Below, one piece after another: positions 47,821 through 62,764 of a DNA stretch of 64,000 bases; the first letter of the stretch is position 1; each line of letters starts with the position of its first letter. Origin of the DNA: Streptomyces aquilus (lineage in GTDB: Bacteria; Actinomycetota; Actinomycetes; Streptomycetales; Streptomycetaceae); the NCBI RefSeq assembly GCF_003955715.1, contig NZ_CP034463.1, forward strand, positions 6,510,001-6,574,000. The letters are read 5' to 3'. The notes beneath the pieces are model-generated. The model did not search any database and had not been told where the DNA came from. It saw only the letters and a program-made list of their open reading frames with translations. The translations under genes and the position numbers were made by a program.

Positions 47821-47833
47821 CTACGCGCGTTAC
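47821..47833. promoter_or_regulatory. Nucleoside-regulon motif at first BMP promoter
   Basis: CTACGCGCGTTAC, overlapping a candidate -10 (TACTGT, 47831-47836). TCGATAACGG lies 38 bp upstream (47783), with the same spacing as at the second BMP gene. One of four related sites in the window. Confidence 0.7.
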
Positions 47834-47918
47834 TGTGCGCCGAAATCGCCACCGTTGGCGGCACATTGGGGTTTGCGGGGCCGTTCGACGGTGCCGTGGG
47901 GATGAAGGGGTGCTTGCT

Positions 47919-49001
47919 GTGCGTCGGATATCTCGGAGGACCAGGTTCTCCCAAGCAGTAGTAGCCGTGTCGGTCATCGCCCTCGCGGCCGTCGGGTGCG
48001 GTGAGTCCAGCACCAAGGCCGACAGTGACAAGGCGTCCACCTCGGCGGACGGCAAGTACTCGGGCAAGGGCATCGGGCTCGCGTACGACATCGGCGGCAA
48101 GGGCGACCAGTCCTTCAACGACGCCGCCTACGCCGGCTTCCAGAAGGCCGAGAAGGAATTCGGCATGGGCGGCAGGGACATCGAGCCGCAGGACGGCGAG
48201 TCCGACGCGGACAAGATCCAGCGCCTGGAGCAGCTCGCCAAGGCCGGCTACAACCCCATCATCGGCGTCGGCTACATCTACGCGCCGGCGGTGAAGGAGG
48301 TCGCCGCGAAGTACCCGAAGATCACGTTCGGCGTCATCGACGACGAGCAGGTGAAGGCCGCCAACGTCGCCGACATGGTCTTCTCCGAGGAGCAGGCCTC
48401 CTACCTCGCGGGTGTCGCCGCCGCCAAGGCCTCCAAGGCCAAGCACGTCGGCTTCATCGGCGGTGTGGACATCCCCCTGATCCACAAGTTCGGCGCGGGC
48501 TTCAAGCAGGGCGTCCAGTCCGTCGACCCGAAGATCAAGATCGAGTCGCAGTACCTGACCGAGACCCCGGCCGAGGGCGGCTTCTCCAGCCCCGACAAGG
48601 GCAAGGAGGCGGCCAGCGGCCAGATCGAGAAGGGCGCCGACGTCATCTACCACGCCGCCGGTCTCTCCGGTCAGGGCGTGATCTCCGAGGCCGCCGCCAA
48701 GAAGGTGTGGGCCATCGGCGTGGACTCCGACCAGTACAACCAGAGCGCGCTGAAGAACTACAAGGACTACATCCTCGGCTCGGCACTGAAGAACGTCGGC
48801 GGCGCGGTCTACGACCTCGCCAAGTCCGTCTACGAGGGCAAGCCCCTCACCGGCGTCCAGCGCGGCGACCTGAAGTCCGGCGGCGTCGGCTTCGCCGACT
48901 CCAACCCGAAGTACAAGGCCATGACGGACGTCGTCGCGGCCGTCGAGAAGGCCAAGCAGGACATCATCGACGGCAAGGTCACGGTCAAGACCACCGACTA
49001 A
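47919..49001 (+). CDS. BMP-family nucleoside-binding lipoprotein 1
   Basis: 360 residues. Signal peptide with lipobox AAVGC (Cys27). BMP/PnrA family body: GLAYDIGGKGDQSFNDAAYA, DKIQRLEQLAKAGYNPIIGV, VIDDEQVKAANVADMVFSEE, QASYLAGVAAAKASK and VGFIGGVDIPLIHKFGAGF. Family members capture purine nucleosides outside the membrane for an ABC importer. The GTG at 47919 has GAAGGGG 8 bases upstream; an upstream GTG at 47910 lies inside that site. It shares a tandem duplicate 220 bp downstream and an importer further on. Confidence 0.93.
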   Translation: MRRISRRTRFSQAVVAVSVIALAAVGCGESSTKADSDKASTSADGKYSGKGIGLAYDIGGKGDQSFNDAAYAGFQKAEKEFGMGGRDIEPQDGESDADKIQRLEQLAKAGYNPIIGVGYIYAPAVKEVAAKYPKITFGVIDDEQVKAANVADMVFSEEQASYLAGVAAAKASKAKHVGFIGGVDIPLIHKFGAGFKQGVQSVDPKIKIESQYLTETPAEGGFSSPDKGKEAASGQIEKGADVIYHAAGLSGQGVISEAAAKKVWAIGVDSDQYNQSALKNYKDYILGSALKNVGGAVYDLAKSVYEGKPLTGVQRGDLKSGGVGFADSNPKYKAMTDVVAAVEKAKQDIIDGKVTVKTTD

Positions 49002-49050
49002 GCCCCGCAGGGACCCCCGGATACGCCCGCCCGGGCCCCATTGCAGCTCA

Positions 49051-49079
49051 TACGCCCCTTGCCTCCCGCAAGGGGCGTA
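49051..49079 (+). terminator. Terminator between the two BMP genes
   Basis: Perfect 12-bp stem TACGCCCCTTGC (49051-49062) / GCAAGGGGCGTA (49068-49079) with a 5-nt loop. Confidence 0.85.
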
Positions 49080-49155
49080 CTGCTGTCCGTAATCTGTGTT
49101 GCATCTGCGGCCACAGCTCGATAACGGACCGGACAGAAGGGGTTTTCCGTCTGGT

Positions 49156-49168
49156 CTACGCGCGTTAC
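49156..49168. promoter_or_regulatory. Nucleoside-regulon motif at second BMP promoter
   Basis: CTACGCGCGTTAC again, preceded 38 bp upstream by TCGATAACGG (49118-49127) exactly as at the first BMP gene; candidate -10 TACGCT follows. Confidence 0.7.
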
Positions 49169-49222
49169 GCTGCGGCGGAACCAGCGCCTGGTTTGGGCGC
49201 TTGCACAAAGGAGTCTCGTTCC

Positions 49223-50269
49223 ATGCGCCGGGTGTCCCGTATCACGGTTGCAGGCGTTGCAACCGCAGCCCTCGCTCTGACCGCGTCCGCGTGCGGCAGC
49301 TCGTCCAGCGAGTCGTCGAACAGCGACAGCAAGAACCTGGGCCTCGCCCTGGCCTACGACGTCGGCGGCAAGGGCGACCAGTCCTTCAACGACGCCGCGA
49401 CCGCCGGCATGGAGAAGGCCGACAAGGAGTTCGGTTACAAGTCCAACGCCGTCGAGCCGCAGGACGGCGAGTCGGACGCGGACAAGGTGCAGCGCCTGGA
49501 GAACCTGGCCAAGCAGGGCTACAACCCGGTCATCGGTGTCGGCTTCGCCTACGCGCCCGCCGTCAAGGAGGTCGCGGCCAAGTACCCGAAGACCACCTTC
49601 GGTGTCGTCGACGACGAGCAGATCAAGGCCGACAACGTCGCCGACCTCGTCTTCTCCGAGGAGCAGGCCTCCTACCTGGCCGGCGTCGCCGCCGCCAAGA
49701 CCACCAAGACCAACGTGGTCGGCTTCATCGGCGGTGTGGACGTGCCGCTGATCCACAAGTTCGAGGCCGGCTTCAAGCAGGGCGTCGCCGACACCAAGAA
49801 GGGGGTCACGGTCAAGTCGCAGTACCTGACCGAGACCGCCGCCGAGGGTGGCTTCTCCAGCCCGGACAAGGGTGAGGCCGCCGCCGAGGGCCAGATCGAC
49901 GACAAGGCGGACGTCGTCTACGCCGCCGCCGGTCTGTCCGGCCAGGGCGTCATCAAGGCCGCCAACGCGCACAAGGTCTGGGCGATCGGCGTCGACTCCG
50001 ACCAGTACAAGCAGGACGCGCTCAAGGCGTACAAGGACTCGATCCTGACCTCCGCCATGAAGAACGTCGAGGGCGCGGTCTACGACCTGGCCAAGTCGGT
50101 CAAGGACGGCAAGCCCGAGACCGGCGTCATCCGCGGCAGCCTCTCCAACGGCGGCGTGAGCCTGTCCAACTCCAACCCGGTGTTCGCGGACAACAAGGAC
50201 ACCCAGGCCGCGATCGAGAAGGCCGTCACGGGCATCAAGGACGGCTCCATCAAGGTGAAGACCTCCTGA
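49223..50269 (+). CDS. BMP-family nucleoside-binding lipoprotein 2
   Basis: 348 residues, tandem paralogue of the protein at 47919, with long identical blocks (SDADK-QRLE, APAVKEVAAKYPK, EEQASYLAGVAAAK, VWAIGVDSDQY). Lipobox TASAC (Cys24). The ATG at 49223 has AAAGGAG at 49207-49213. The linker after the Cys is Ser-rich. It likely feeds the importer encoded just downstream; the two lipoproteins may differ in nucleoside preference or expression (inference). Confidence 0.94.
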   Translation: MRRVSRITVAGVATAALALTASACGSSSSESSNSDSKNLGLALAYDVGGKGDQSFNDAATAGMEKADKEFGYKSNAVEPQDGESDADKVQRLENLAKQGYNPVIGVGFAYAPAVKEVAAKYPKTTFGVVDDEQIKADNVADLVFSEEQASYLAGVAAAKTTKTNVVGFIGGVDVPLIHKFEAGFKQGVADTKKGVTVKSQYLTETAAEGGFSSPDKGEAAAEGQIDDKADVVYAAAGLSGQGVIKAANAHKVWAIGVDSDQYKQDALKAYKDSILTSAMKNVEGAVYDLAKSVKDGKPETGVIRGSLSNGGVSLSNSNPVFADNKDTQAAIEKAVTGIKDGSIKVKTS

Positions 50270-50329
50270 CCCCACCCGGTCACAGGCCTTGGCCAAATAA
50301 GCGCTGTAATGGCAGCGTTACGGCCGCGG

Positions 50330-50365
50330 AACGGGGTGCGGAGACGATGCTCTTCGCGCCCCGTT
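50330..50365 (+). terminator. Possible terminator after BMP gene 2
   Basis: Imperfect 11-bp stem AACGGGGTGCG (50330-50340) / CGCGCCCCGTT (50355-50365) with one T-G pair and a 14-nt loop. Weaker than the others here. Confidence 0.5.
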
Positions 50366-50442
50366 CGCGCGGCAGAATGCTCGGAACGGATCGTTGGCCG
50401 AAAATGGACGATCAGGTCCGGGCACTATTTAAAGCAGGGGCG

Positions 50443-50454
50443 CTACGCGCGTAG
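50443..50454. promoter_or_regulatory. Nucleoside-regulon palindrome at ABC importer promoter
   Basis: CTACGCGCGTAG, a perfect 12-bp palindrome, overlapping the candidate -10 TAGAGT (50452-50457). Thirty bases upstream of the proposed ATC start of the ATPase gene. Confidence 0.75.
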
Positions 50455-50483
50455 AGTGGCCCCTTCCACAAGGAGAGTGCGCC

Positions 50484-52160
50484 ATCGACGCGACCAGCAG
50501 CCCGCCTCCGCCGCACATCGACCATTCGACGATCGCGGTCGAGCTGGCGGGGATCACCAAGCGGTTCCCGGGTGTCGTCGCCAACCACGACATCCACCTG
50601 ACGGTACGAAAGGGCACCGTCCATGCCCTCGTCGGCGAGAACGGCGCCGGCAAGTCGACCCTGATGAAGATCCTCTACGGCATGCAGAAGCCGGACGAGG
50701 GCACCATCGCGGTCGCCGGCGCACAGGTGACCTTCGGCAGCCCCGCCGACGCCATCGCCCGCGGCATCGGCATGGTCCACCAGCACTTCATGCTCGCCGA
50801 CAACCTCACCGTCCTGGAGAACGTGGTCCTGGGCAGCGAGAAGCTGTACGGCATCGGCGGCGGCGCCCGTAAGAAGATCAAGGAGATCTCCGACCGCTAC
50901 GGGCTCAACGTGCGCCCCGACGTCCTCGTCGAGGACCTCGGTGTCGCCGAGCGCCAGCGCGTCGAGATCCTCAAGGTCCTCTACCGCGGCGCCAGCACCC
51001 TCATCCTCGACGAGCCCACCGCCGTCCTCGTGCCGCAGGAGGTCGACGCGCTCTTCGACAACCTGCGCGAGCTCAAGTCCGAGGGCCTGTCGGTCATCTT
51101 CATCTCCCACAAGCTGGGCGAGGTGCTGTCCGTCGCCGACGACATCACCGTCATCCGGCGCGGTACGACCGTCGGTACGGCCGTCCCCGCCGAGACCACC
51201 CCGCGCCAGCTCGCCGAGATGATGGTCGGCAGCGAGCTGCCCACCCCGGAGACCGCCGAGTCGACCGTCACCGACCGGGCCGTCATCGAGGTCGCGGGCC
51301 TCACCGTCTACGCCAGCGGCGGCGCCTCCCTGGGCGTCGACGCCGAGCCGTCCGGCGGCGTCGGCCTGGCCGCCGAGGGCGGCGAGGTCAAGAAGGTCCT
51401 CGACGACGTCACCTTCACCATCCACGCCGGTGAGGTCATGGGCATCGCCGGTGTCGAGGGCAACGGCCAGACCGAGCTCATCGACGCGCTGATCGGCACC
51501 AAGAACGCCGACTCCGGCACCATCGCCTTCCTCGGCGAGGACATCACCCCCTGGCCCACCCGGAAGCGCCGCGAGTCCGGCGTCGGCTACATCCCCGAGG
51601 ACCGCCACCGCCAGGGCCTGCTCCTGGAGTCCCCCCTCTGGGAGAACCGCATCCTCGGCCATGTCACCGAGGCCCCCAACGCCAAGGGCGTCTGGCTCAA
51701 CCCCAAGGGCGCCCAGGCCGACACCCGCCGGATCGTCGAGGAGTACGACGTCCGCACCCCCGGCATCGACGTCACCGCCGCCTCCCTGTCCGGCGGCAAC
51801 CAGCAGAAGCTGATCGTCGGCCGCGAGATGAGCCACAGTCCGAAGTTCCTGATCGCCGCCCACCCCACCCGCGGTGTGGACGTCGGCGCGCAGGCCCAGA
51901 TCTGGGACCGCATCCGCGACGCCCGCCGCGAGGGCCTGGCGGTGCTGCTGATCTCCGCCGACCTGGACGAGCTCATCGGCCTGTCGGACACCCTGCGGGT
52001 GATCTACGACGGCAGGCTGGTCGCCGACGCCAACCCCGCGACGATCACCCCCGAGGAGCTCGGCTCCGCGATGACCGGTGCCGCGTCCGGACACCTTGAG
52101 CACGTAGAGAACGGCGCGGAAGCAGCCGCCGAATCCGCCCCGGAGGACGAGGCCCGATGA
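50484..52160 (+). CDS. BMP-type nucleoside ABC importer, ATP-binding protein, apparent ATC start
   Basis: 558 residues if read from ATC 50484. Two fused ABC domains (RbsA/YufO style): NBD1 Walker A GENGAGKST (51-59) and Walker B TLILDEPTAV; NBD2 degenerate Walker A GVEGNGQTE and signature LSGGNQQKLIVG. The frame is closed by TAA at 50430, and no ATG, GTG or TTG occurs until ATG 50664, which would delete Walker A. AAGGAG at 50470-50475 is ideally spaced (8 nt) from ATC 50484, and the protein from there (IDATSSPPPPHIDHSTIAVE) runs smoothly into the domain. An indel in the sequence is the alternative. The stop overlaps the next ATG. Confidence 0.85.
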   Translation: MDATSSPPPPHIDHSTIAVELAGITKRFPGVVANHDIHLTVRKGTVHALVGENGAGKSTLMKILYGMQKPDEGTIAVAGAQVTFGSPADAIARGIGMVHQHFMLADNLTVLENVVLGSEKLYGIGGGARKKIKEISDRYGLNVRPDVLVEDLGVAERQRVEILKVLYRGASTLILDEPTAVLVPQEVDALFDNLRELKSEGLSVIFISHKLGEVLSVADDITVIRRGTTVGTAVPAETTPRQLAEMMVGSELPTPETAESTVTDRAVIEVAGLTVYASGGASLGVDAEPSGGVGLAAEGGEVKKVLDDVTFTIHAGEVMGIAGVEGNGQTELIDALIGTKNADSGTIAFLGEDITPWPTRKRRESGVGYIPEDRHRQGLLLESPLWENRILGHVTEAPNAKGVWLNPKGAQADTRRIVEEYDVRTPGIDVTAASLSGGNQQKLIVGREMSHSPKFLIAAHPTRGVDVGAQAQIWDRIRDARREGLAVLLISADLDELIGLSDTLRVIYDGRLVADANPATITPEELGSAMTGAASGHLEHVENGAEAAAESAPEDEAR

Positions 52161-53278
52161 AGAAGTTCGACAAGGAGCGCCTGCTCCTCGCCGTGGCCGG
52201 TCCGGCCCTGGCGCTCGTCGCGGCGATCCTGCTGACCTCGGTCGTGCTGATCGCCTCCGGCAAGAGCCCGATCGAGCCCTACCGGCTGATGATCGAGCAG
52301 GCCGGCTACTCCGACGTCCAGGTTCTGATCATCAACCAGGCGTCGATGTACTACATCGCCGCCCTCGCGGTCGCCCTCGGCTTCCGCATGAACCTCTTCA
52401 ACATCGGCGTCGACGGCCAGTACCGCCTCGGCGCCATGATGACCGCCGTCGTCGGCGCCCACGTCGCTCTGCCGGCCGCCCTCCAGGTGCCCCTGCTGCT
52501 CCTGGTCGGCGCGCTCACCGGCGCCATGTGGGCCGGTATCGCGGGCGTCCTGAAGGTGACCCGGGGCGTCAGCGAGGTCGTCGCGACGATCATGCTGAAC
52601 TCGATTGCCACCAGCCTCATCGGCTACCTCACCCTCACCGACAACTGGGGCGTCCCGCTCGGCGACAACGTCACCACCGGTGTGATGAAGGAGTCCGGCT
52701 GGGTCCCCGGCATCGACCTCGGCTCCGACGTCGGCGAGATCTACGGCCTGGTCTTCCTCGCCATCGCCATGGGCATCGGCTACTGGTTCGTCCTCAACCG
52801 CACCCGCTTCGGCTTCGACCTGCGCGCCACCGGTGCCTCCGAGACCGCCGCCGCGGCCTCGGGCGTCAACGCCAAGCGCATGGTCCTCACCGCGATGCTG
52901 ATCTCCGGCGCCGTCGCCGGCATCTCCGGCCTGCCGCTGCTGCTCGGCGACGCCCACACGTACAGCCTCAGCTTCCCGGCCGGTCTCGGCTTCACCGCCA
53001 TCGGCATCGCCCTGCTGGGCCGCAACAACCCCGGCGGCATCGCACTCGCCGCCCTGCTGTGGGCCTTCCTCGACAAGGCGTCCCCCGCGCTCGACTACGC
53101 GACTCCCGAGCCGTACGAGAAGGAGATCGCCACGATCATGCAGGGCCTGATCGTGTTCGCGGTCGTCATCTCCTACGAGGTCGTCCGCACCTGGGGCCTG
53201 CGCCGGCAGCAGAAGCGCGTCGGTGAGGAACTCGCCGCGGCCGCCGCCCAGAACACCAAGAAGGAGGTGGCGGTCTGA
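52157..53278 (+). CDS. Nucleoside ABC importer permease 1
   Basis: 373 residues with about nine to ten membrane helices, of the branched-chain-type permease family used by BMP importers: MYYIAALAVALGFRMNLFNI, GVDGQYRLGAM, VTRGVSEVVATIMLNSIA and a C-terminal GLGFTAIGIALLGRNNPGGI. The ATG overlaps the ATPase stop by four bases and its stop overlaps the next start, so ATPase and both permeases are translated as a chain. It forms half of the membrane channel. Confidence 0.95.
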   Translation: MKKFDKERLLLAVAGPALALVAAILLTSVVLIASGKSPIEPYRLMIEQAGYSDVQVLIINQASMYYIAALAVALGFRMNLFNIGVDGQYRLGAMMTAVVGAHVALPAALQVPLLLLVGALTGAMWAGIAGVLKVTRGVSEVVATIMLNSIATSLIGYLTLTDNWGVPLGDNVTTGVMKESGWVPGIDLGSDVGEIYGLVFLAIAMGIGYWFVLNRTRFGFDLRATGASETAAAASGVNAKRMVLTAMLISGAVAGISGLPLLLGDAHTYSLSFPAGLGFTAIGIALLGRNNPGGIALAALLWAFLDKASPALDYATPEPYEKEIATIMQGLIVFAVVISYEVVRTWGLRRQQKRVGEELAAAAAQNTKKEVAV

Positions 53279-54540
53279 TGAGCACCGCGACCATCGCCAA
53301 GGCACCGGCGAAGCAGCCCGGCAAGGGCGGCCGCCGCATGTCGCTGCCCGTCCTCCTCCTGATCATCTCGGGCGTCCTGATCCTGACGTCGATCGTCCGC
53401 CTCATCACCGGCGCGGACGGCATCACCTCCACCGGCCAGATGTCCACCGCCCTGCGCGCGGCCGTCCCGATCGGCCTCGCCGGCCTCGGCGGTCTGTGGG
53501 CCGAGCGGGCGGGCGTCGTCAACATCGGCCTCGAAGGCATGATGATCCTCGGCACCTGGTTCGGCGCCTGGGCCGGCTACCAGTGGGGCCCGTGGACCGG
53601 CGTCGTCGTCGGCATCATCGGCGGCGCGCTCGGCGCCGTCCTGCACGCCATCGCCACGGTCACCTTCAACGTCAACCACATCGTCTCCGGTGTGGCCCTG
53701 AACATCCTGGCCCTCGGCACCACCCGCTATCTGTCGAAGTTCACCTTCGAGGACGCCCCGCAGGGCTCCTCCAAGCAGTCCCCGCCGATCGACTCGCTCG
53801 GCACCTTCGACGTGCCCGGGCTGTCCAGCTGGCTGGAGACCCTCAACCAGAAGCACTGGTTCCTGATCTCCGACATCGCCGGCCTCGTCGGCGGTCTGAT
53901 CACCGACCTGTCGCCGCTCACCGTCGTCGCCGTCGCCCTCGTACCCGCCACCTGGTACGTGCTGTGGCGCACCTCGTTCGGTCTGCGGCTGCGCTCCTGC
54001 GGCGAGAACCCGATCGCGGCCGAGTCCCTCGGCGTCAACGTCTACAAGTACAAGTACATCGCCGTGATCATCTCCGGCGGCTTCGCCGGCCTCGGCGGTG
54101 CCTTCCTGTCGATCGTGTCGTCCAACGTGTACCTCGACGGCCAGACGGCCGGCCGCGGCTACATCGGTCTCGCCGCGATGATCTTCGGCAACTGGATGCC
54201 GGGCGGACTCGCCCTCGGCGCGGGCCTGTTCGGCTACACCGACAGCCTCAAGCTGCGCGGCGGCACCACCAACGTCCACGCGCTGATCCTGCTGCTCGCG
54301 ATCCTGCTGGTGTTCGGCGTCGCGTACCTCGTCTGGAAGAAGAAGTACGTCCCCGCCGCCATCACCGCCGCGATCTCGGCCCTGATGTTCGTCTGGTACG
54401 CCACCACGGACGACGTCCCGAACCAGGTCGTGACCGCCAGCCCGTACGTCATCACCCTCCTCGTCCTGTCGCTGTCCGCGCAGCGCCTGAGGATGCCGAA
54501 GGCGGACGGCCTGCCGTACCGGAAGGGCCAGGGCAAGTGA
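53278..54540 (+). CDS. Nucleoside ABC importer permease 2
   Basis: 420 residues with about nine to ten membrane helices. Permease core: RAAVPIGLAGLGGLWAERAG, VVNIGLEGMMILGTWFGAWA, NVNHIVSGVALNILALGTTR and SCGENPIAAESLGVNVYKYK, with the late GRGYIGLAAMIFGNWMPGG. The segment at about 140-190 is a long hydrophilic loop. It partners permease 1. TGATG overlap upstream and GTGA overlap with cytidine deaminase downstream couple uptake to salvage. Confidence 0.95.
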   Translation: MSTATIAKAPAKQPGKGGRRMSLPVLLLIISGVLILTSIVRLITGADGITSTGQMSTALRAAVPIGLAGLGGLWAERAGVVNIGLEGMMILGTWFGAWAGYQWGPWTGVVVGIIGGALGAVLHAIATVTFNVNHIVSGVALNILALGTTRYLSKFTFEDAPQGSSKQSPPIDSLGTFDVPGLSSWLETLNQKHWFLISDIAGLVGGLITDLSPLTVVAVALVPATWYVLWRTSFGLRLRSCGENPIAAESLGVNVYKYKYIAVIISGGFAGLGGAFLSIVSSNVYLDGQTAGRGYIGLAAMIFGNWMPGGLALGAGLFGYTDSLKLRGGTTNVHALILLLAILLVFGVAYLVWKKKYVPAAITAAISALMFVWYATTDDVPNQVVTASPYVITLLVLSLSAQRLRMPKADGLPYRKGQGK

Positions 54541-54926
54541 CCGCCGATTGGGAGGCCCTCAGGGAGCTGGCGCGCGAGGCGATGAGCCACGCGTACGCCC
54601 CCTACTCGGGCTATCCGGTCGGCGTCGCGGCCCTCGTCGACGACGGCCGCACGGTCTCCGGCTGCAACGTCGAGAACGCCAGCTACGGCCTCGGCCTGTG
54701 CGCCGAGTGCGGGCTGGTCTCGGAGTTGCAGCGCACCGGAGGCGGCCGCCTGACGCACTTCACCTGCGTCGACGGCCGGGGCGAGATCCTCGTCCCCTGC
54801 GGCCGCTGCCGGCAGCTGCTGTACGAGTTCGGCGGCCCCGACCTGCTGCTGGAGACACCGGCGGGCATCCTCCCGCTGTCGGAGATGCTGCCGCAGGCCT
54901 TCGGGCCGGGGCATCTCACCAAGTAA
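54537..54926 (+). CDS. cdd: Cytidine deaminase
   Basis: 129 residues, normal length for the tetrameric enzyme. Zinc site: C-x-VENASYGLGLCAECG (catalytic Glu in CAE) and PCGRCRQLLYEF, plus the N-terminal SHAYAPYSGYPVGVAAL. It deaminates cytidine and deoxycytidine to uridine and deoxyuridine. The GTG start at 54537 overlaps the permease stop (GTGA). It acts on nucleosides brought in by the importer, ahead of thymidine phosphorylase. Confidence 0.97.
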   Translation: MTADWEALRELAREAMSHAYAPYSGYPVGVAALVDDGRTVSGCNVENASYGLGLCAECGLVSELQRTGGGRLTHFTCVDGRGEILVPCGRCRQLLYEFGGPDLLLETPAGILPLSEMLPQAFGPGHLTK

Positions 54927-54934
54927 CTCCCGTG

Positions 54935-54963
54935 CGGCCCCTCTGAATCGCTCAGGGGGGCCG
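54935..54963 (+). terminator. Intra-operon hairpin between cdd and deoA
   Basis: 12-bp stem CGGCCCCTCTGA (54935-54946) / TCAGGGGGGCCG (54952-54963) with one G-U pair and a 5-nt loop. It could partly attenuate deoA. Confidence 0.6.
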
Positions 54964-54995: not shown

Positions 54996-56279
54996 ATGGC
55001 CATGGACGCCATCTCCGTCATCCGCACCAAGCGGGACCGCGGTGAGCTCAGCGACGAGCAGATCGACTGGGTCATCGACGCGTACACCCGCGGCGAGGTC
55101 GCCGACTACCAGATGGCCGCGCTGAACATGGCCATCCTCCTCAACGGCATGAACCGCCGCGAGATCTCCCGCTGGACCGCCGCGATGATCGCGTCCGGCG
55201 AGCGCATGAACTTCTCGTCCCTCTCCCTCCCGACGGCGGACAAGCACTCCACGGGCGGCGTCGGCGACAAGATCACGCTCCCGCTGGCCCCCCTGGTGGC
55301 GGCCTGCGGCGCGGCCGTGCCCCAGCTCTCCGGCCGCGGCCTCGGCCACACCGGCGGCACCCTGGACAAGCTGGAGTCGATCCCCGGCTGGCGCGCGCTG
55401 CTCTCCAACGAGGAGATGCTGCACGTCCTCGACACCACCGGCGCGGTCATCTGCGCGGCGGGCGACGGCCTGGCCCCCGCCGACAAGAAGCTCTACGCCC
55501 TGCGGGACGTGACCGGCACGGTGGAGGCGATCCCCCTGATCGCCTCGTCCATCATGTCGAAGAAGATCGCCGAGGGCACCGGCTCCCTCGTCCTGGACGT
55601 GAAGGTCGGCTCCGGCGCCTTCATGAAGACGATCGAGGACGCGCGTGAGCTGGCGTCGACGATGGTCGGCCTGGGCACCGACCACGGCGTGAAGACGGTC
55701 GCGCTCCTGACGGACATGTCGACCCCGCTCGGCCTCACGGCGGGCAACGCGCTGGAGGTCCGCGAGTCGGTGGAGGTCCTGGCCGGCGGCGGCCCGGCCG
55801 ACGTCGTCGAGCTGACGATCGCCCTGGCCCGCGAAATGCTGGACGCGGCCGGCGTCCGCGACGCCGACCCGGCGAAGGCCCTGGCCGACGGCTCCGCGAT
55901 GGACGTCTGGCGCCGGATGATCGCGGCCCAGGGCGGCGACCCGGACGCGGAGCTGCCGGTGGCGAAGGAGCAGCACGTGGTGAAGGCGTCCGCCGCGGGC
56001 GTCCTGACCCGCCTCGACGCCTACGACATCGGCGTCGCCGCCTGGCGCCTCGGCGCGGGCCGCGCCCGCAAGGAGGACCCGGTGCAGGCGGGCGCGGGCA
56101 TCGAGATGCACGCCAAGCCCGGCGACACGGTGACGGCGGGCCAGCCCCTCCTGACCCTCCACACGGACACGCCGGAACGCTTCGAGTACGCGCTCCAGGC
56201 GATCGAGGGTTCCTACGACATCGCCGCCGCGGGCACGGACTTCACGGCGTCGCCCGTCGTGCTGGAACGTATCGCCTGA
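54996..56279 (+). CDS. deoA: Thymidine/pyrimidine-nucleoside phosphorylase
   Basis: 427 residues from the ATG at 54996 behind GGAAGGAA. Family signature SGRGLGHTGGTLDKLESIPG (phosphate and nucleoside binding), KHSTGGVGDKITLPLAPLVA, SKKIAEGTGSLVLDVKVGSG and SAAGVLTRLDAYDIGVAAWR. It converts thymidine, deoxyuridine or uridine plus phosphate to base and (deoxy)ribose-1-phosphate. Last enzyme of the importer-cdd-deoA operon, ended by the hairpin at 56302. Confidence 0.97.
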   Translation: MAMDAISVIRTKRDRGELSDEQIDWVIDAYTRGEVADYQMAALNMAILLNGMNRREISRWTAAMIASGERMNFSSLSLPTADKHSTGGVGDKITLPLAPLVAACGAAVPQLSGRGLGHTGGTLDKLESIPGWRALLSNEEMLHVLDTTGAVICAAGDGLAPADKKLYALRDVTGTVEAIPLIASSIMSKKIAEGTGSLVLDVKVGSGAFMKTIEDARELASTMVGLGTDHGVKTVALLTDMSTPLGLTAGNALEVRESVEVLAGGGPADVVELTIALAREMLDAAGVRDADPAKALADGSAMDVWRRMIAAQGGDPDAELPVAKEQHVVKASAAGVLTRLDAYDIGVAAWRLGAGRARKEDPVQAGAGIEMHAKPGDTVTAGQPLLTLHTDTPERFEYALQAIEGSYDIAAAGTDFTASPVVLERIA

Positions 56280-56301
56280 GCTGCGGTTTCCTCTTTCCGG
56301 T

Positions 56302-56335
56302 GAACGGGATCGGTGGACTGCCGCCGGTCCCGTTC
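56302..56335 (+). terminator. Terminator of the nucleoside operon
   Basis: 12-bp stem GAACGGGATCGG (56302-56313) / CCGGTCCCGTTC (56324-56335), one mismatch. It overlaps an in-frame GTG at 56300, supporting the later Uma2 start. Confidence 0.65.
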
Positions 56336-56353
56336 GGCGTGTTGGATGTGGGC

Positions 56354-56941
56354 ATGAGGGCATGCGAAGGCGACTACATCCTGACGGACAGTGAGTGGGA
56401 CGAACTCGTCTGGGTATGGGGGCAGACCGACGTCCCCAAGGGCTGCAAGGTGGAGATCATCGATGGGCTGATCACGGTGACGCCCTACTCCGCCCAGGCT
56501 CACCACGGCACCGTCGAGCCGGTGCAGCGGCGCCTCTACGGGGTGATCCCCGAGGACTGGGGGGTCTTCCAGACCCAGGCCATCGCCGTCCCGTCGCGGC
56601 TGGGCATGTTCATCCCGGACATCCTGGTGGCGCCGGTCCAGGAGTGCACCGAGGCGGACAGCTGCCTTCCGGCCGCCCTCGCGGAACTCGTAGTAGAGAT
56701 CACCTCCAGGAAGAACGCCCGCCACGACCGCGTGAGCAAGCCGGCCGCCTATGCCTCCGCGGGCATCCCGCTCTACCTCCTGGTCGACCGCTGGGCCCCC
56801 GAAGGCCCCACCGCGACGCTCTACGGCGAACCGCGGGGCGATGTCTACCGGCCCCTGGCCGTCGCCAAGTTCGGCGAGCTCCTGACGGTTCCGGCCCCCT
56901 TCGACCTCGTCATCGACACCGGCGAGTTCCCGGAGACGTGA
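56354..56941 (+). CDS. Uma2-family (PD-(D/E)XK-fold) putative nuclease
   Basis: 195 residues from the ATG at 56354. Uma2 elements in order: YEI-like KVEIIDGLITVTPYSAQAH, the active-site Asp in FIPDILVAP, and the ELVVEITSRKN strand (Glu and the Lys/Asn end of the PD-(D/E)XK core), then RKPAAYASAGIPLYLLVD. These genes are very numerous in Streptomyces; a nuclease role is predicted from fold only. Its stop lies 1 bp from the convergent AEC transporter gene with no terminator between. Confidence 0.85.
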   Translation: MRACEGDYILTDSEWDELVWVWGQTDVPKGCKVEIIDGLITVTPYSAQAHHGTVEPVQRRLYGVIPEDWGVFQTQAIAVPSRLGMFIPDILVAPVQECTEADSCLPAALAELVVEITSRKNARHDRVSKPAAYASAGIPLYLLVDRWAPEGPTATLYGEPRGDVYRPLAVAKFGELLTVPAPFDLVIDTGEFPET

Positions 56942-56942
56942 G

Positions 56943-57863
56943 TCAGCCGAGCAACGCCGCCACCACCACCAGCACCGGTACCGACAACACCGTCGACACC
57001 AGGATCGAGTCCCGCGCCAGCCGCTCGCCGACCCCGTACTGGGACGCGTACGTGTAGAGGTTCTGCGCCGCCGGGAGTGCCGAGGTGACCACCACGTCGA
57101 GGAGTTGGTGGCCGCGCAGGCCGAAGACGCCCGCCGCCAGCACCCAGGCGAGCGCGGGCTGGCCGAACGACTTCAGGGCGACCGACAGCAGGACCGGAGC
57201 GCGGTCGGGGCCCTTGCCCGGCATCGTGCTGCCGCACAGGGAGATGCCGAAGGCGAGCAGGACCGCCGGGACGGACATGCCGCCGATCAGGGTCAGCGGG
57301 TCCATCACCGGGCTCGGCACGTGCACGCCGGTCGCCGCCGCCAGCACGCCTGCCAGGGAACCCACGGCGATCGGATTGCGCAGCGGCGTCAGCAGCCGGC
57401 GGCCGAGCGGCCCCTTGTCACCGTCACCGGACAGATCCAGGACCGTCACCGCGATCGGCGCGACGAGGACCAGCTGGAACAGCAGCACCGGAGCCACCAG
57501 CGAGGCGTCGCCGAGGACGTACACGGCGATCGGGATGCCCAGATTCCCGGAGTTGACGTAACTGGAGCAGAGCGCGCCGATCGTCGTCCGGCCCACCCCC
57601 CAGTGCCGTACGACACCCACCGCGACGAAGACGCCCGCCGCCGCTGCCGTGCTGAGCGCCGTCACCAGCAGGCGGCTGGAGAAGACCACCGACAGGTCGG
57701 CCTTCGCCAGGGTGGTGAACAGCAGGGCGGGGGAGGCGACATGGAAGGCGAGCTTGGTCAGCACCTCACGCCCCTGGTCGCCCAAGTAGCCGCGCAGACC
57801 GATGACATAGCCGACGCCGATCACGACCGCGATCACGGCGAAGCCCGTCAGCACTCCCTGCAC
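56943..57863 (-). CDS. AEC (auxin efflux carrier) family transporter
   Basis: 306 residues, ten predicted membrane helices in two inverted halves. Typical features: LAFHVASPALLFTTLAKADL in helix 2, SSYVNSGNLGIPIAVYVLG in helix 4, PLTLIGGMSVPAVLLAFGISL in the second half, and SALPAAQNLYTYASQYG near the end. Bacterial members export or import small carboxylic acids. GTG start at 57863 with GAGGAGG upstream. Single gene; substrate unknown. Confidence 0.9.
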   Translation of the reverse strand: MQGVLTGFAVIAVVIGVGYVIGLRGYLGDQGREVLTKLAFHVASPALLFTTLAKADLSVVFSSRLLVTALSTAAAAGVFVAVGVVRHWGVGRTTIGALCSSYVNSGNLGIPIAVYVLGDASLVAPVLLFQLVLVAPIAVTVLDLSGDGDKGPLGRRLLTPLRNPIAVGSLAGVLAAATGVHVPSPVMDPLTLIGGMSVPAVLLAFGISLCGSTMPGKGPDRAPVLLSVALKSFGQPALAWVLAAGVFGLRGHQLLDVVVTSALPAAQNLYTYASQYGVGERLARDSILVSTVLSVPVLVVVAALLG

Positions 57864-58027
57864 GGAGCCTCCTCACCGGTGAGAAGGGCGTGCGAGATCA
57901 GGGGCGGTGCCGATATGTGGGGCATGCACCTAACCCTCCGGGGCAGAAGGGTCGCAGGTCAATGTGATCCCGATCGGCGGACACCGCCGCGACGGCCCGG
58001 CAGCGACGACCTTGAGGACGCCCCGCG

Positions 58028-58426
58028 ATGAGTTCCGCCCTTCCGCCCGGTCTACCGCTCGTGGACGCTTCCCTGACACCCGCCGTACTCGTGCTCACCC
58101 GCCCCGTCACCCGGGACGAGGTGGCGGGGCTGTGCGACGACGTGCGGGGCCTGCTGGAGGCCACCGGGGCGGGGGTCGTGATCTGTGACGTAGGCGGTCT
58201 GGGGCCGCCGGGGCTCGGTGTCGTGGACCTGCTCGCGCGGCTCCAGCTGACCGCCCGGCGGGCCGGGGGACGGATCAGACTGCGCGATCCCGACCCGGCC
58301 CTACACGCCCTCCTCGACCTGGTCGGACTCCGCTTCGAGAGCGTCGAGATGGAGGGGGAGGCCGAACAGCGGGAACCACCGCTGGGTGTCGAGGAAGAAG
58401 TGGAACCCGGTGAGCCGACCGTCTGA
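58028..58426 (+). CDS. STAS-domain protein
   Basis: 132 residues with one STAS domain (about 18-108): VLVLTRPVTRDEVAGLCDDV, VVICDVGGLGPPGLGVVDLL and RLQLTARRAGGRIRLRD. The usual phosphorylatable Ser of anti-sigma antagonists (DxSG) is replaced by DVGGL, so regulation by phosphorylation is unlikely. The last 126 bp overlap the 3-prime end of the convergent sigma factor gene, and the acidic tail (QREPPLGVEEEVEPGEPTV) comes from that overlap. Confidence 0.78.
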   Translation: MSSALPPGLPLVDASLTPAVLVLTRPVTRDEVAGLCDDVRGLLEATGAGVVICDVGGLGPPGLGVVDLLARLQLTARRAGGRIRLRDPDPALHALLDLVGLRFESVEMEGEAEQREPPLGVEEEVEPGEPTV

Positions 58427-59323
58427 GATCTCCAGCACCTGCACCGCCCAGGGGGTCCAGCCGCCCTCCTCGGGGTCCGGCTTGTACTGCGCGAAGCCCG
58501 GCAGACCGTTGACCTGCACCGGCACCAGCCGCGAGCCCTCGCAGGCCGAGCCGAGCGTCGTCATGAAGCCCGTGATGTCGTCGTGGCCCGTCAGCCACAG
58601 GTCGAACGGCGGCATCGTCATGATGGCGTCCTCGTGCAGCAACGCCGTCAGGGCCGTCATGTCGTACCCCTCGAAGGCCGCCACATAGCGGTCCAGGAGC
58701 TTCTGCTGCTCCTCGTCGAGGGGGTTGGAGACGGCCGCCTCCGCGCCCTGCTTGCCGTCGCTCTCGGCGAGGGTCGCGCGGGCCCGCTGGAGGGCGCTGT
58801 TCACCGACGCGACCGTGGTGCCGAGCAACTCGGCGACCTCGCTGGCCTTCCACGCCAGCACCTCGCGCAGGATCAGCACCGCCCGCTGCTTCGGCGGCAG
58901 TTGTTGCAGGGCGGCCATGAAGGCGAGCCGCACGGATTCCTTGGCCACGGCAGCCTCCGCCGGGTCCTCGACGGTGGGCAGGATGCGGGCGTCCGGCATC
59001 GGCTCCAGCCAGGTGTGGTCCGGGCGGGGGGAGAGGGCGGCCTGGGCGAGGGGGGTGGACTCGGTGAGATCCATGGGCCGGGCGCGTTTGTTGCCCGCGG
59101 ACAACATGTCCAGACAGACGTTCGTCGCGATGCGGTACAGCCACGAGCGCAGACTCGACCGGCCCTCGAACTTCTCGTAGCTCCGCCAGGCCCGGACCAT
59201 CGTGTCCTGCACCGCGTCCTCGGCCTCGAAGGAGGAACCGAGCATCCGGTAGCAGTACCCGGTCAGCTCGACCCGGTGTTTCTCCAGCCTGATGTCGAGA
59301 TCCGCCGTAGTCGTGTCCGTCAT
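58301..59323 (-). CDS. SigG-type ECF sigma factor with SnoaL-like C-terminal domain
   Basis: 340 residues from the ATG at 59323. Sigma region 2: GYCYRMLGSSFEAEDAVQDT, then RSSLRSWLYRIATNVCLDML. Region 4: QLPPKQRAVLILREVLAWKA and VAELLGTTVASVNSALQRAR. About residues 205-330 form a SnoaL/NTF2-like domain (LLDRYVAAFEGYDMTALTAL, LHEDAIMTMPPF), as in the TIGR02960/SigG group, where the extra domain may control the sigma factor without a separate anti-sigma. No anti-sigma gene is adjacent, which fits. The start follows GGTGGA. Confidence 0.9.
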   Translation of the reverse strand: MTDTTTADLDIRLEKHRVELTGYCYRMLGSSFEAEDAVQDTMVRAWRSYEKFEGRSSLRSWLYRIATNVCLDMLSAGNKRARPMDLTESTPLAQAALSPRPDHTWLEPMPDARILPTVEDPAEAAVAKESVRLAFMAALQQLPPKQRAVLILREVLAWKASEVAELLGTTVASVNSALQRARATLAESDGKQGAEAAVSNPLDEEQQKLLDRYVAAFEGYDMTALTALLHEDAIMTMPPFDLWLTGHDDITGFMTTLGSACEGSRLVPVQVNGLPGFAQYKPDPEEGGWTPWAVQVLEISDGRLTGFHFFLDTQRWFPLFGLPLHLDALEAESDQVEEGV

Positions 59324-59444
59324 CGTCGTCCACCCACCCCTGTGGCCGTTCTGTGTCGCGCCTTCGCGCCCAGCACGTTCGAAGCTATCGCAGGGCACTG
59401 ACAATGGCCCCCGGAGCAGGCAAACACGCAGGTCAGAAAGCCAA

Positions 59445-59476
59445 TCCCCCTGGCCGACCGACCTCGACCAGGGGGA
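59445..59476 (-). terminator. Terminator of the MFS gene
   Basis: 9-bp stem TCCCCCTGG (59445-59453) / CCAGGGGGA (59468-59476), 14-nt loop, 25 bp beyond the MFS stop. The rest of the 178-bp gap holds the sigma gene promoter region. Confidence 0.65.
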
Positions 59477-59501
59477 AGACAGGGGGGAGCGGACGTGCGG
59501 C

Positions 59502-60770
59502 TCAGGCAGTCAGGAGCCGCTGCTGAACCCGAGCCGCACGCGTACCCAGGAGCGTGATCGTGACCACGCCGAACACCGCCAGCAGACCAACCCCCACCGT
59601 CCCGGCCCAGCCGCCCGCGTGGAAAGCGAGCGCGCCGACCGTGGAACCGGCACTCGACCCGATGTAGTACGCCGACTGGTAGAGCGCGGACGCCTGCGCG
59701 CGGCCCTCCGTCGCCGTCTTGCTCACCGCCGACGACGCCACCGCGTGCCCCGCGAAGAAGCCGCCGGTGATCAGGACCAGGCCGAGCAGGACCAGTACGA
59801 GGGAGTCGGCCAGGGACAGGACCAGCCCCGTCGCCGTCGTCGCGCCCGCCGCGTACAGCGCGCCCCGGCGTCCGAGACGCCCGACCAGCCGACCGGCCGT
59901 CGACGCCGACACCGTGCCCACCAGGTAGATCAGGAAGATCGACCCGATGATGCCCTGCGGAAGCCCGAACGGCGCCTCCGTCAGCCGGTAGCCGATCACC
60001 GTGTACACGCCGCCGAAGACGGTCATGAACAGCGCGCCGATCGCGTACAGCCGACGCAGCAGCGGGTTGGCGAGGTGGTCGCGGACCGTCCCCACCAGCA
60101 CCCGGGGCCGCAGCGACCCGGCGACGAAGTGCTTCGGCGCCGGAAGCAGCAGCCGGAACGCCACCGCGCAGCCGACGGCGATGACCCCGATGACGGCCAG
60201 CGCGACCCGCCAGCCCCACTCCTGGGCCACCCATCCGGTGATGACCCGGCCGCTCATCCCGCCGACGCTGTTGCCCGCGACGAAGAGACCGATAGCGGTG
60301 ATCAGCGCCTTGGGGCGGACCTCCTCCGCCAGATACGCGGTCGCGGAGGCCGGCAGCCCGGCCAGCGCCGCACCCTGCACCGCCCGCAGCGCGACCAGCG
60401 CCGGCAGCGAGGGCGCGAGCGGGACGAGGAGCCCGACCGTCACCGCCACGGCCAGCGAGGCCGTCATGACCGTACGCCGTCCGAACCGCTCGGACAGGGC
60501 GCTCATGGGAAGCACGAACAGGGCCAGCCCGCCCGTCGCCGCCGCCACCGTCCAGCTCGCGTCGCTCGCCGCCACCCCGAACTCGTCGGAGATCAGCGGC
60601 AGAAGGGCCTGCGTGGAGTAGAGGAGGGCGAAGGTCGCGACACCGGCGAGGAAGAGGGCGAAGCTCATCCGGCGGTAACCGGGGCCGCCCGGGGACAGAC
60701 GGGAGTCGACGACAGGAACGACGGGGTCGGCGCCCACGCGGGTGGTGGACGCCTCGGTACTGGCAGGCAT
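59502..60770 (-). CDS. MFS transporter (YnfM-like)
   Basis: 422 residues, twelve predicted helices. MFS signatures: LSERFGRRTVMTASLAVAVT in the loop 2-3 region, VALRAVQGAALAGLPASATA, and GRLVGRLGRRGALYAAGATT in the second half. The QALLPLISDEFGVAASDASW opening is typical of the YnfM/YdeR subgroup of putative effluxers. It is divergent from a LysR gene across a 63-bp gap, so it is probably the regulator's target. Substrate unknown. Confidence 0.9.
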   Translation of the reverse strand: MPASTEASTTRVGADPVVPVVDSRLSPGGPGYRRMSFALFLAGVATFALLYSTQALLPLISDEFGVAASDASWTVAAATGGLALFVLPMSALSERFGRRTVMTASLAVAVTVGLLVPLAPSLPALVALRAVQGAALAGLPASATAYLAEEVRPKALITAIGLFVAGNSVGGMSGRVITGWVAQEWGWRVALAVIGVIAVGCAVAFRLLLPAPKHFVAGSLRPRVLVGTVRDHLANPLLRRLYAIGALFMTVFGGVYTVIGYRLTEAPFGLPQGIIGSIFLIYLVGTVSASTAGRLVGRLGRRGALYAAGATTATGLVLSLADSLVLVLLGLVLITGGFFAGHAVASSAVSKTATEGRAQASALYQSAYYIGSSAGSTVGALAFHAGGWAGTVGVGLLAVFGVVTITLLGTRAARVQQRLLTA

Positions 60771-60833
60771 GACTCGAAGCTACGACCACCTGCGTTGATG
60801 CGTCCAATGCATGAACTCGCCATAATCGTTCCC
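60771..60833. promoter_or_regulatory. Divergent LysR/MFS control region
   Basis: Contains ATGC-N7-GCAT (60799-60813 approx.), a LysR-type T-N11-A inverted repeat, and CATAAT at 60821-60826 as a candidate -10 only 7 bases before the LysR ATG. Confidence 0.55.
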
Positions 60834-61793
60834 ATGGTGCATCAACCCAGCTCACAGCCCCGCCTGTCACCGTCCAGTGACACAGAAGACACGTCGGAGA
60901 TGTCGATGCTGCTGGCCCCGCGGCTCGCCTACTTCGCCGGCGTCGCCCGCACCGAGCACGTCACCCGGGCCGCCCTGGAGATGAACGTCCCCCAGTCCAC
61001 GCTCTCCCGCGCGATGGTCCGCCTCGAACAGGACCTGGGCGTCGACCTGTTCGCCCGCATCGGCCGCACGGTCTCCCTCACCCCGTCCGGCCGCGCCTTC
61101 CTCACACACGTCGAACGCGCCCTCGCCGAGATCGAACGCGCCGCCGAGGAGGTACGCGCCGACGCCGACCCGGCCACCGGCAAGGTCGCCTTCGGCTTCC
61201 TCCACACCATGGGCTCCGAGACCGTCCCCGGCCTGATCCGCGCCTTCCGCGCCGACCATCCCCGCGTCCGCTTCAGCCTCGTCCAGAACTACGGCGAGGC
61301 GATGATCGAACGGCTGCGCGCGGGTGAGCTGGACCTGTGTCTGACCTCGCCCGTGCCCGACGCCCCGGACCTCGTCGCCCGCCGCCTCGACGAACAGAAA
61401 CTCCGCCTGGTCGTGCCCGCCGACCACCCCCTGGCCTCCCGCAAGCGCATCCGCCTCGCCGAGGCCGCCGACGAGACCTTCGTGACCCTGGAACCGGGCT
61501 ACGGACTGCGCAGAATCACCGACGACCTGTGCAAGGAGGCGGGCTTCCGCCCGAGGGTGGCCTTCGAGGGGGAGGAGGCGGAGACGCTGAGGGGTTTGGT
61601 GGCGGCGGGGCTGGGGGTGGCCCTGCTCCCGCCTCCGGCGGTGGCCCGCCCGGGAGTTGCCGAACTGACGGTCACGGCGCCGAGAGCGGCGAGGGAAATC
61701 GGCGTCGCATGGCTCGACGGCCACCCGGACACCCCGCCAGTGGCCGCCTTCAAGAAGTTCCTGCTCTCGAAGAGGGGGAGCTTGCTGACCTGA
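60834..61793 (+). CDS. LysR-family transcriptional regulator
   Basis: 319 residues from the ATG at 60834 (other in-frame ATGs at 60807, 60900 and 60906 are possible; the last has GGAG upstream). Helix-turn-helix: RLAYFAGVARTEHVTRAALE, then MNVPQSTLSRAMVRLEQDLG and VDLFARIGRTVSLTPSGRAF. The periplasmic-binding-like effector domain follows (VAFGFLHTMGSETVPGLIRA, LVVPADHPLASRKRIRLAE). It likely controls the divergent MFS exporter in response to an unknown ligand. If 60834 is correct, the mRNA is nearly leaderless. Confidence 0.9.
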   Translation: MVHQPSSQPRLSPSSDTEDTSEMSMLLAPRLAYFAGVARTEHVTRAALEMNVPQSTLSRAMVRLEQDLGVDLFARIGRTVSLTPSGRAFLTHVERALAEIERAAEEVRADADPATGKVAFGFLHTMGSETVPGLIRAFRADHPRVRFSLVQNYGEAMIERLRAGELDLCLTSPVPDAPDLVARRLDEQKLRLVVPADHPLASRKRIRLAEAADETFVTLEPGYGLRRITDDLCKEAGFRPRVAFEGEEAETLRGLVAAGLGVALLPPPAVARPGVAELTVTAPRAAREIGVAWLDGHPDTPPVAAFKKFLLSKRGSLLT

Positions 61794-61864
61794 AGGGGCG
61801 CGGGGCTGTGTCGATGTGCGGCTCCGCTGCGTGGGCGCGACCGGCCACAGACGACCCGCACCCC
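61794..61864. repeat. Dispersed GC-rich repeat, copy D (long form, inverted)
   Basis: Begins AGGGGCGCGGGG directly after the LysR stop, then holds about 28 extra bases with a GGCTCCGCTGC core, then resumes GCGCGACC...ACCCGCACC as in the other copies. It fills most of the 96-bp gap to the hydrolase gene. Confidence 0.7.
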
Positions 61865-61889
61865 GAAGACAACCTCAGCCCACCGAGCT

Positions 61890-62651
61890 CTACCGCCGCA
61901 GACTCCGCCCGAACCCAGAAGCCAACGGCATCCGCAATCCCAGCGGCGGCGGAGCGGCCAACGCGTCCTCCACCGGTCGCGACAACGGCCTCCCGAACAA
62001 CGCCCCCATCACGAAGTCCTCGGCCAGCGCCAGGACTTCCTCCCGGTACTGCCGCAACCCGTGGCCATCGGCGTGTACTTCGAACCGGCACACATCCCGG
62101 TTCGCCTTCTTCGCCCGCGCCGCGAGGCGGAACGACAGCTCCGGGTCGGTCCGTTCGTCATGCGTGCCGTGCACGACCAGCACCCGCCGCCCCGCGAGCT
62201 GCTTCACCGGTTCGGGTGGCGCCGCCACATCCTCCTCCGGCAGCCAAGGGGCCAGCGCCACGACGGAGTTGACGGCCTCGTGGCCGCCCGCGTGGAGCGC
62301 CGCCCGGCCGCCCATCCCGACTCCGGCGAGGCACACGGAGACGTCGCCGTAACGTCGTACGACCTCGTCCGCGGCCCACGCCGCGTCGCGCGCGAGATGG
62401 GCCTCCGAGCCGTTCCAGCCGCGATAGCGGTAGTGGACGACGTGCGTGGCCAGCCCGTCCTCGCGGCCCGCGCGGGCCAGTCGGCGGCCGAGGGCGCGGA
62501 CGGCGGCGTTGGCCATCATGGGCGACGGCCTGCGTTCGGAGACCTCCTCGCCGCCGGGGAGCAGCAGCACCACGCCGCTCACCGCCGTCGGTTCCGGGCC
62601 CGGTGCCCGCCCCAGCCGGGCCGTGCGAACCGGCGTCGATTGCTGTGCCAT
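61890..62651 (-). CDS. Alpha/beta-hydrolase-fold protein with nucleophile Ser replaced by Gly
   Basis: 253 residues. Alpha/beta hydrolase fold: VVLLLPGGEEVSERRPSPMM (oxyanion region), HYRYRGWNGSEAHLARDAAW, the nucleophile elbow CLAGVGMGGRAALHAGGH, then VLVVHGTHDERTDP (acid) and VHADGHGLRQYREE (base His). The elbow reads G-V-G-M-G-G, where GxSxG would place the catalytic Ser, while the Asp and His positions are kept. It may be a non-hydrolytic or regulatory member. Soluble; no signal peptide. Confidence 0.82.
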   Translation of the reverse strand: MAQQSTPVRTARLGRAPGPEPTAVSGVVLLLPGGEEVSERRPSPMMANAAVRALGRRLARAGREDGLATHVVHYRYRGWNGSEAHLARDAAWAADEVVRRYGDVSVCLAGVGMGGRAALHAGGHEAVNSVVALAPWLPEEDVAAPPEPVKQLAGRRVLVVHGTHDERTDPELSFRLAARAKKANRDVCRFEVHADGHGLRQYREEVLALAEDFVMGALFGRPLSRPVEDALAAPPPLGLRMPLASGFGRSLRR

Positions 62652-62736
62652 GACAGAACAGTGTCAGAAGCAACGGTGTACGCCACCTGTCGGGGCGGTC
62701 ACCGTTACGTATCGGCGGTGTTGTACACCGCGCGAT

Positions 62737-62748
62737 CTACGCGCGTAG
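62737..62748. promoter_or_regulatory. Nucleoside-regulon palindrome at the add promoter
   Basis: CTACGCGCGTAG, identical to the site at 50443. A candidate -10 TAGAGT (62753-62758) lies just after it and 6 bases before the add ATG, so a near-leaderless transcript is possible. Confidence 0.75.
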
Positions 62749-62764
62749 GAGTTAGAGTGCGGAA

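Follow-up and report, generated by a model that had tools for sequence, protein, structure and literature searches.

A conserved palindrome before nucleic-acid scavenging and purine genes of Streptomycetaceae: a proposed repressor operator and a candidate LacI-family reader

In Escherichia coli, the LacI-family repressor PurR, with hypoxanthine or guanine as co-repressor, controls purine-synthesis genes, and CytR and DeoR jointly control deoC, PNP, deoA, cdd and nucleoside importers. Bacillus subtilis PurR, a protein of the phosphoribosyltransferase fold, unites de novo purine synthesis with purine and nucleoside uptake in one regulon (compare PMC8789054), and NupR of Bacillus thuringiensis, of the GntR/HutC family, controls nucleoside transport (PMC9430930). 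Here we analyze a palindromic sequence that recurs before nucleoside genes in a 64-kb stretch of the Streptomyces aquilus genome (the window; contig NZ_CP034463.1, positions 6,510,001 to 6,574,000). By a small margin of belief, we favor the reading that it is the operator of a repressor that controls nucleic-acid scavenging and purine genes throughout Streptomycetaceae, with a LacI-family protein as the candidate repressor and a purine as co-repressor.

The system resembles that of E. coli PurR in its even palindrome with a central CG, in its inclusion of purine-synthesis genes and in a LacI-family candidate that matches PurR structures at E values of 3e-41 to 2e-40. It is unlike PurR in its half-site (TCTAC here, ACGCAA in PurR), in its targets, which are mainly a secreted nuclease, nucleotidases, an importer and nucleoside catabolism, and in the candidate protein, which scores better on CcpA structures and differs at three of five purine contacts. 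With CytR/DeoR it shares the genes named above. However, those regulators are not known to have purine-synthesis or secreted-nuclease targets, whereas one operator covers them here, and DeoR is not supported as the reader here. The B. subtilis PurR differs in protein fold and operator, and NupR in regulator family and in that mainly transport control is described for it.

The palindrome in the S. aquilus genome

A sequence scan of the window found all four copies where the initial annotation had placed them: CTACGCGCGTAG, the exact 12-mer, at 50443-50454 and 62737-62748, and CTACGCGCGTTAC at 47821-47833 and 49156-49168. The sites and the genes that follow them are given below.

47821 to 47833, plus strand: putative operator copy upstream of BMP lipoprotein 1; the -10 TACTGT (47831-47836) is fused with its right half
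47910 to 49001, plus strand: BMP-family lipoprotein 1, substrate-binding protein of an ABC importer (NCBIfam best match NF047927, scoring under its cut-off)
49156 to 49168, plus strand: putative operator copy before BMP lipoprotein 2, overlapping the -10 TACGCT (49166-49171)
49223 to 50269, plus strand: BMP-family lipoprotein 2
50443 to 50454, plus strand: putative palindromic operator before the ABC importer-cdd-deoA operon, overlapping the -10 TAGAGT (50452-50457)
50484 to 52160, plus strand: ABC importer ATPase (NCBIfam), apparent start codon ATC, Shine-Dalgarno sequence AAGGAG at 50470-50475
52157 to 53278, plus strand: ABC importer permease 1 (NCBIfam)
53278 to 54540, plus strand: ABC importer permease 2 (NCBIfam)
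54537 to 54926, plus strand: cdd, cytidine deaminase (NF004064, above cut-off)
54996 to 56279, plus strand: deoA, thymidine phosphorylase (NF004490, above cut-off)
62737 to 62748, plus strand: putative palindromic operator of add, with the -10 TAGAGT (62753-62758) 4 nt downstream
62765 to 63928, plus strand: add, adenosine deaminase (NF006847, above cut-off)

The annotation's statement that each site overlaps or abuts a -10 is fair, as three sites overlap one and that of add lies 4 nt before it, all -10 hexamers having been assigned by eye. From these positions relative to the -10 we infer a repressor-site role. The add transcript is probably leaderless. The add copy had been put 8 kb beyond the others; the true distances are 12.3 kb to the ABC copy and 6.5 kb to the end of deoA. 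That the window holds no regulator gene for the motif agrees with our results, both candidate regulators discussed below mapping outside it.

The two exact 12-mers compare with 0.002-0.003 expected in the window by Markov models of order 1-4, whose 580-kb training sequence from the S. aquilus genome included the window. With one mismatch allowed to the 13-mer CTACGCGCGTTAC, none of 100 dinucleotide shuffles gave at least two window matches. At two mismatches the 12-mer had five window matches versus 4.5 expected, which is no enrichment, and thus the signal within the window lies in exactness, promoter position and conservation.

Nor is the motif scattered at random over the genome. All five exact 12-mer copies are at nucleoside genes, versus about 0.5 copies expected in 10.39 Mb. 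Two are those of the ABC operon and add within the window, and the others are as follows.

6584402: deoC-aldehyde dehydrogenases, 10 kb past the right window edge
6590809: PNP-phosphomutase, 17 kb past the right window edge
1266715: second adenosine deaminase, the site overlapping codons 3-7

The relaxed pattern WACGCGCGTW occurs at 34 places in the genome versus 10 for the reversed pattern, and 11 of the 34 adjoin nucleic-acid or nucleoside genes. It adds a secreted DNase of the ExeM/NucH type (below the cut-off of NF033681, above that of PF03372), two nucleotidases that each exceed the PF02872 cut-off, one a UshA-like 5'-nucleotidase and the other CpdB-like, and purS-purQ, with the site 83 bp before purS and PurQ above cut-off. 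We take purL to be in the same operon. The initial description of an uptake and salvage regulon is therefore too narrow, since the secreted DNase, the two secreted nucleotidases and purS-purQ also belong. A further pattern, CTACGCGCGT, has 40 places in the genome (45 rows, five counted twice) versus 21 rows for its reverse, and many of the 40 are probably chance. It adds, as candidate members, a secreted class-B acid phosphatase (PF03767), a guanyl-specific RNase (PF00545) and an HNH-type secreted nuclease (GmrSD_C domain, PF07510), in which the site falls within the first codons. Across the genome, sites lie in unrelated operons at 1.27, 2.75, 2.94, 5.12, 5.23 and 6.56-6.59 Mb.

Conservation and structure of the sites

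The exact 12-mer was found in all 41 Streptomyces genomes searched (S. aquilus included) at 3-6 copies each, 159 copies in total versus 27 for the reversed pattern, and in 60 of 61 Streptomycetaceae genomes, G195 being the exception, and 16 of 17 genera. In a survey of the class, 16 of 148 genomes had it: all 11 Streptomyces drawn and five of the 137 others. The seven regions around exact copies in those five other-genus genomes (G120, G127, G144, G149, and G155) gave no match at E 1e-5 to 24 query proteins, comprising the regulon proteins and their neighbors. The idea that the motif marks a nucleoside regulon beyond the family was thus rejected, there being no relatives of the regulon by the copies in these five genomes.

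Within the family the motif is conserved before orthologues of the target genes. The analysis of PNP and deoC covered 80 named Streptomyces loci, taken as the best of more than 580. In these the 10-mer TACGCGCGTA stands 35-36 bp upstream of PNP in 80/80 and upstream of deoC in all 65 that extend to deoC. Of 150 10-mers counted in 1.49 Mb, these sites account for 145, and the 12-mer is invariant at both genes, whereas much of the flank varies. Other genes were scanned over 350 bp upstream for TACGCGCGTA with at most one mismatch, with the reversed 10-mer as control. A site preceded each BMP gene in 18/18 loci with the gene found (20 fetched for BMP1), versus 0/18 for each control, although in several genomes both BMP queries fell on one gene. 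The exact 10-mer preceded add in 19/19 loci with the gene found (20 fetched), the reversed control being absent there too, and the ABC operon had a site within one mismatch in 16 of 18 loci. For the secreted DNase, the UshA-like and the CpdB-like nucleotidases, the site was present in 30/30 loci each and the reversed 10-mer in none, although the 8-base core of the reversed control was present in three of the 30 nucleotidase regions. These three counts refer to the best 30 matches; all 41 genomes had some match, the best being weak or fragmentary in G003 for the nucleotidase and in G002, G008, G010, and G021 for CpdB. At purS the site was found in 28 of 30 loci and the control in 0/30 (the best 30 of the 61 family genomes). 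Loci of an amidohydrolase served as a negative control: 0/13 had a site within one mismatch and one had the 8-base core, two of the 15 loci having been left out because their slices extended beyond where the contig begins. Sites that precede orthologues in related species do not count as independent evidence.

From the purS variants, the full operator is read as TCTACnCGnGTAGA, often with one strong half-site. The central CG is kept in all 28 purS sites and its neighbors vary (TCTAC[ACGT]CG[CA]GTAGA); the arms CTAC and GTAG are both intact in 13 sites, and one is intact in the other 15. Most other promoters likewise have one perfect arm and one relaxed arm, which in the BMP genes is relaxed because the -10 takes over that arm. 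Taken together, the palindrome is almost certainly the operator of a family-wide regulon.

Further copies were seen in other settings. The exact palindrome lies upstream of purN in seven genomes of two other genera (L408, L411, L414, L415, L417, L422, and L423), mostly in a divergent intergenic region; purN was identified by NCBIfam for L408 and by eye for the rest. Copies also precede a Cof-type HAD phosphatase (two genomes), an oligopeptide ABC permease (two genomes), PstS, a serine protease and secreted proteins (loci L393, L404, L395, L384, L394, L360, L396, L410, L412, and L413, named mostly by eye), and some of the genes behind these copies may be regulon members.

Two features adjoin the window sites. 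About 37 bp upstream of the BMP operators is a second element, (C)GATAACGG or ATAACAAGG (window 47784-47792 and 49119-49127), seen by eye in most loci printed and possibly an activator site. The ABC ATPase has an apparent start codon of ATC in 19 and ATA in two of the 21 sequences that matched the pattern AGTGCG-YY-start, among 27 scanned (window 50470-50486; L214-L217, L219, L221, L222, L225-L233, L427, and L429-L431). ATG, GTG, TTG or CTG was found there in 0/21, though the pattern allowed them, and in S. aquilus the first in-frame ATG, GTG or TTG is at 50664, past the Walker A motif. Conservation of an AUC or AUA start codon would be a rare case. Elsewhere in the window, in a cluster at about 36-43 kb, the open reading frame 42546-43487 has an N-terminal sequence that by eye is like those of N-acetylneuraminate synthase-like proteins.

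The candidate reader of the operator and its possible effector

The sequence TCTACnCGnGTAGA is an even palindrome with a central CG pair, the feature used to recognize LacI-family operators and present for 1173 of 1303 LacI-family regulators (PMC4052901), and some LacI-family protein probably reads it. The candidate is the following gene.

5115851 to 5116873 of the S. aquilus genome (L486 8852-9874): LacI-family protein of 340 residues with PF00356 and PF13377

Both domains, PF00356 at residues 7-51 and PF13377 at 171-337, are above the gathering score. The gene is 1.4 Mb from the window and, start to start, 8 kb from the 5'-nucleotidase gene. Its own -10 is overlapped by TCCATCCGCGTAGA, which starts 22 bp before the gene, and all 16 orthologues found (S. 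aquilus included) have a site within two mismatches of TCTACnCGnGTAGA that overlaps the -10 and starts 22-23 bp before the gene, whereas two control patterns gave none upstream of the 16 at up to three mismatches. The orthologues came from 20 further genomes fetched around the nucleotidase, in 15 of which the gene was found. The chance of such a site is about 0.3% per 120 bp, and two LacI genes were looked at. The conserved operator-like site in its promoter makes the protein a candidate for autoregulation. That this protein reads the palindrome we rate a little below an even call. The other LacI protein (L471), which we call SCO4158-like as a guess from synteny, was rejected as the reader, there being no site within two mismatches upstream of its gene.

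The candidate falls below the cut-off of every NCBIfam equivalog listed, the nearest by bits being RbsR, PurR and GalS; for the PurR equivalog NF007979 it scored 173 bits versus a cut-off of 501. Among the best 120 of 960 relatives, the named organisms are Streptomyces plus one Actinacidiphila and one named Actinospica. At the purine contacts of E. coli PurR (residues R190, T192, R196, F221, and D275), R190, T192 and R196 are replaced by T, P and H, F221 by the similar Y, and D275 is kept, as is PurR F74.

In the mechanism we propose, a repressor bound at or just upstream of the -10 would block transcription of the genes for the secreted DNase, the nucleotidases, the BMP/ABC nucleoside importer, cdd, deoA, add, PNP, phosphomutase, deoC and purS-purQ. 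The most likely reader would be the autoregulated LacI-family protein at 5115851-5116873, a purine-derived co-repressor would hold it on the DNA, and purine or nucleoside shortage would release all branches at once. The co-repressor is suggested by the control of purine synthesis together with scavenging. A fuller form, in which one family-wide autoregulated LacI repressor senses purine status and controls everything from extracellular DNA and RNA digestion (by the DNase, HNH-type nuclease, guanyl-specific RNase, CpdB, 5'-nucleotidase and acid phosphatase) through to purine synthesis, seems to us unlikely as a whole.

A number of observations weigh against the proposal. The LacI gene was not found in five of 21 loci, and its site has two mismatches and is partly constrained by the -10. 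By sequence its nearest solved structures are CcpA and then RbsR and PurR, and the ligand need not be a purine base, since three of the five contacts differ. The conserved core of the operator is 14 bp versus 16-22 nt for most LacI palindromes (PMC4052901). Sites were not seen before the ABC operon in two of 18 loci (in one of the loci, L220, the gene start could not be placed) or before purS in two of 30, and purN of S. aquilus lacks one. In NCBIfam the importer comes nearest, though below cut-off, to entries named "putative B6 ABC transporter", so that nucleoside as its substrate rests on linkage. Some published expression data also disagree. Under acid stress in S. albulus, deoC goes up whereas an adenosine deaminase and the phosphoribosylformylglycinamidine synthase genes go down (PMC7317143), opposite changes that a single switch does not predict. 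In S. coelicolor lacking ArgR the deoC protein falls, whereas a secreted nucleotidase rises, as does an adenosine deaminase transcript (PMC3293853). Changes in one direction are reported for S. lividans making a secreted cellulase, where SCO4917 (PNP), SCO4914 (deoC) and SCO4901 (add) rise together by log2 values of 3.70, 3.24 and 2.16 (PMC6302529). None of the BMP, ABC and purS-purQ genes was seen in Tables 1-4 of that paper.

The first alternative is that the operator is real and is read by a different protein, whether of the LacI family or not, for which we see a substantial though minority chance. About 0.7 Mb of the S. aquilus genome was read, holding two recognized LacI genes, and Streptomycetaceae genomes average 32 LacI proteins (PMC4052901), so that other LacI genes could encode the reader. 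Moreover, no regulator gene with a consensus-grade promoter site was seen among the 34 WACGCGCGTW and 40 CTACGCGCGT places. In contrast, the sole LacI gene with a site keeps it in every orthologue found.

Of similar standing is the opposite logic, in which a catabolic repressor like CytR or DeoR is released by imported nucleosides and purS-purQ is a side target. Most targets are catabolic, and the candidate keeps the pocket aromatics and Asp of PurR without R190, T192 and R196, so its ligand could be a nucleoside or ribose. However, the purS site is nearly as conserved as the catabolic sites, making purines on a supply of nucleosides would be wasteful, and the seven purN copies of the other genera point the same way. 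Given the purS site, simple induction by nucleosides is less likely than repression by a protein that senses purines, and of the two we moderately favor purine co-repression.

A DeoR-family gene (L014 19045 to L015 13), situated 2.2 kb away from the PNP operator, is a weaker candidate for the repressor than the LacI-family gene, and we think it improbable. It adjoins the PNP-deoC part of the cluster, its orthologues are present in 61/61 Streptomycetaceae genomes at 75-99% identity, and in enterobacteria nucleosides are under the control of DeoR proteins. It is set back by the absence of a site within two mismatches in the 300 bp upstream in all 80 loci, and by relatives with a near-identical recognition helix that sit by other genes. 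Those relatives occupy 11 loci of two other families; three of the four loci whose gene content was read hold sugar ABC importers and one does not, and the weak operator matches in two lie >4 kb from DeoR. The operator is also of LacI type. The S. coelicolor module around SCO4920 (DeoR) is described through sigma factors and regulators, not nucleosides (PMC3224704). DeoR relatives of the two other families (L139-L141 and L146) lie beside ABC sugar-importer-like genes, and by eye the intergenic regions of L139-L141 contain GATCG/TTCG-rich repeats, perhaps an operator of their own.

It is very improbable that an alternative sigma factor uses the repeat as a core promoter element. Several promoters have it next to or overlapping the -10, but its distance to the TAnnnT -10 (by eye) ranges from overlap to 12 bp upstream, its strong half is found in either orientation (BMP versus DNase), and no fixed partner element was seen; the variable distance and the two orientations argue for an operator. 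Chance or shared ancestry of neighboring DNA can be dismissed, for although orthologous sites are not independent and the reversed core turned up in a few nucleotidase regions, the sites are spread over the genome in operons unrelated to one another, the reversed 10-mer was absent at up to one mismatch and exact copies are in tenfold excess.

Significance for Streptomyces biology

No description of this motif or regulon was found among the papers listed by full-text searches; most subscription papers and RegPrecise were outside their scope, and an earlier description is possible. Passages of PMC4848846, PMC9739823, PMC11538686 and PMC6344877 name no regulator for the motif. Among the papers listed we also found no account of the regulation by which Streptomyces breaks down and reuses nucleic acids, including those from its own dying hyphae. 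With an operator present across the family, one candidate repressor and a list of genes from a secreted DNase through to purine synthesis, this becomes a testable question. If the proposal is true, the supply of purines, on which (p)ppGpp and other nucleotide signals draw, would be tied to an identified transcriptional switch. It may also be, though we hold this doubtful, that Streptomyces has a dedicated program for recycling the nucleic acids of dying mycelium, which would have signaling consequences for development.

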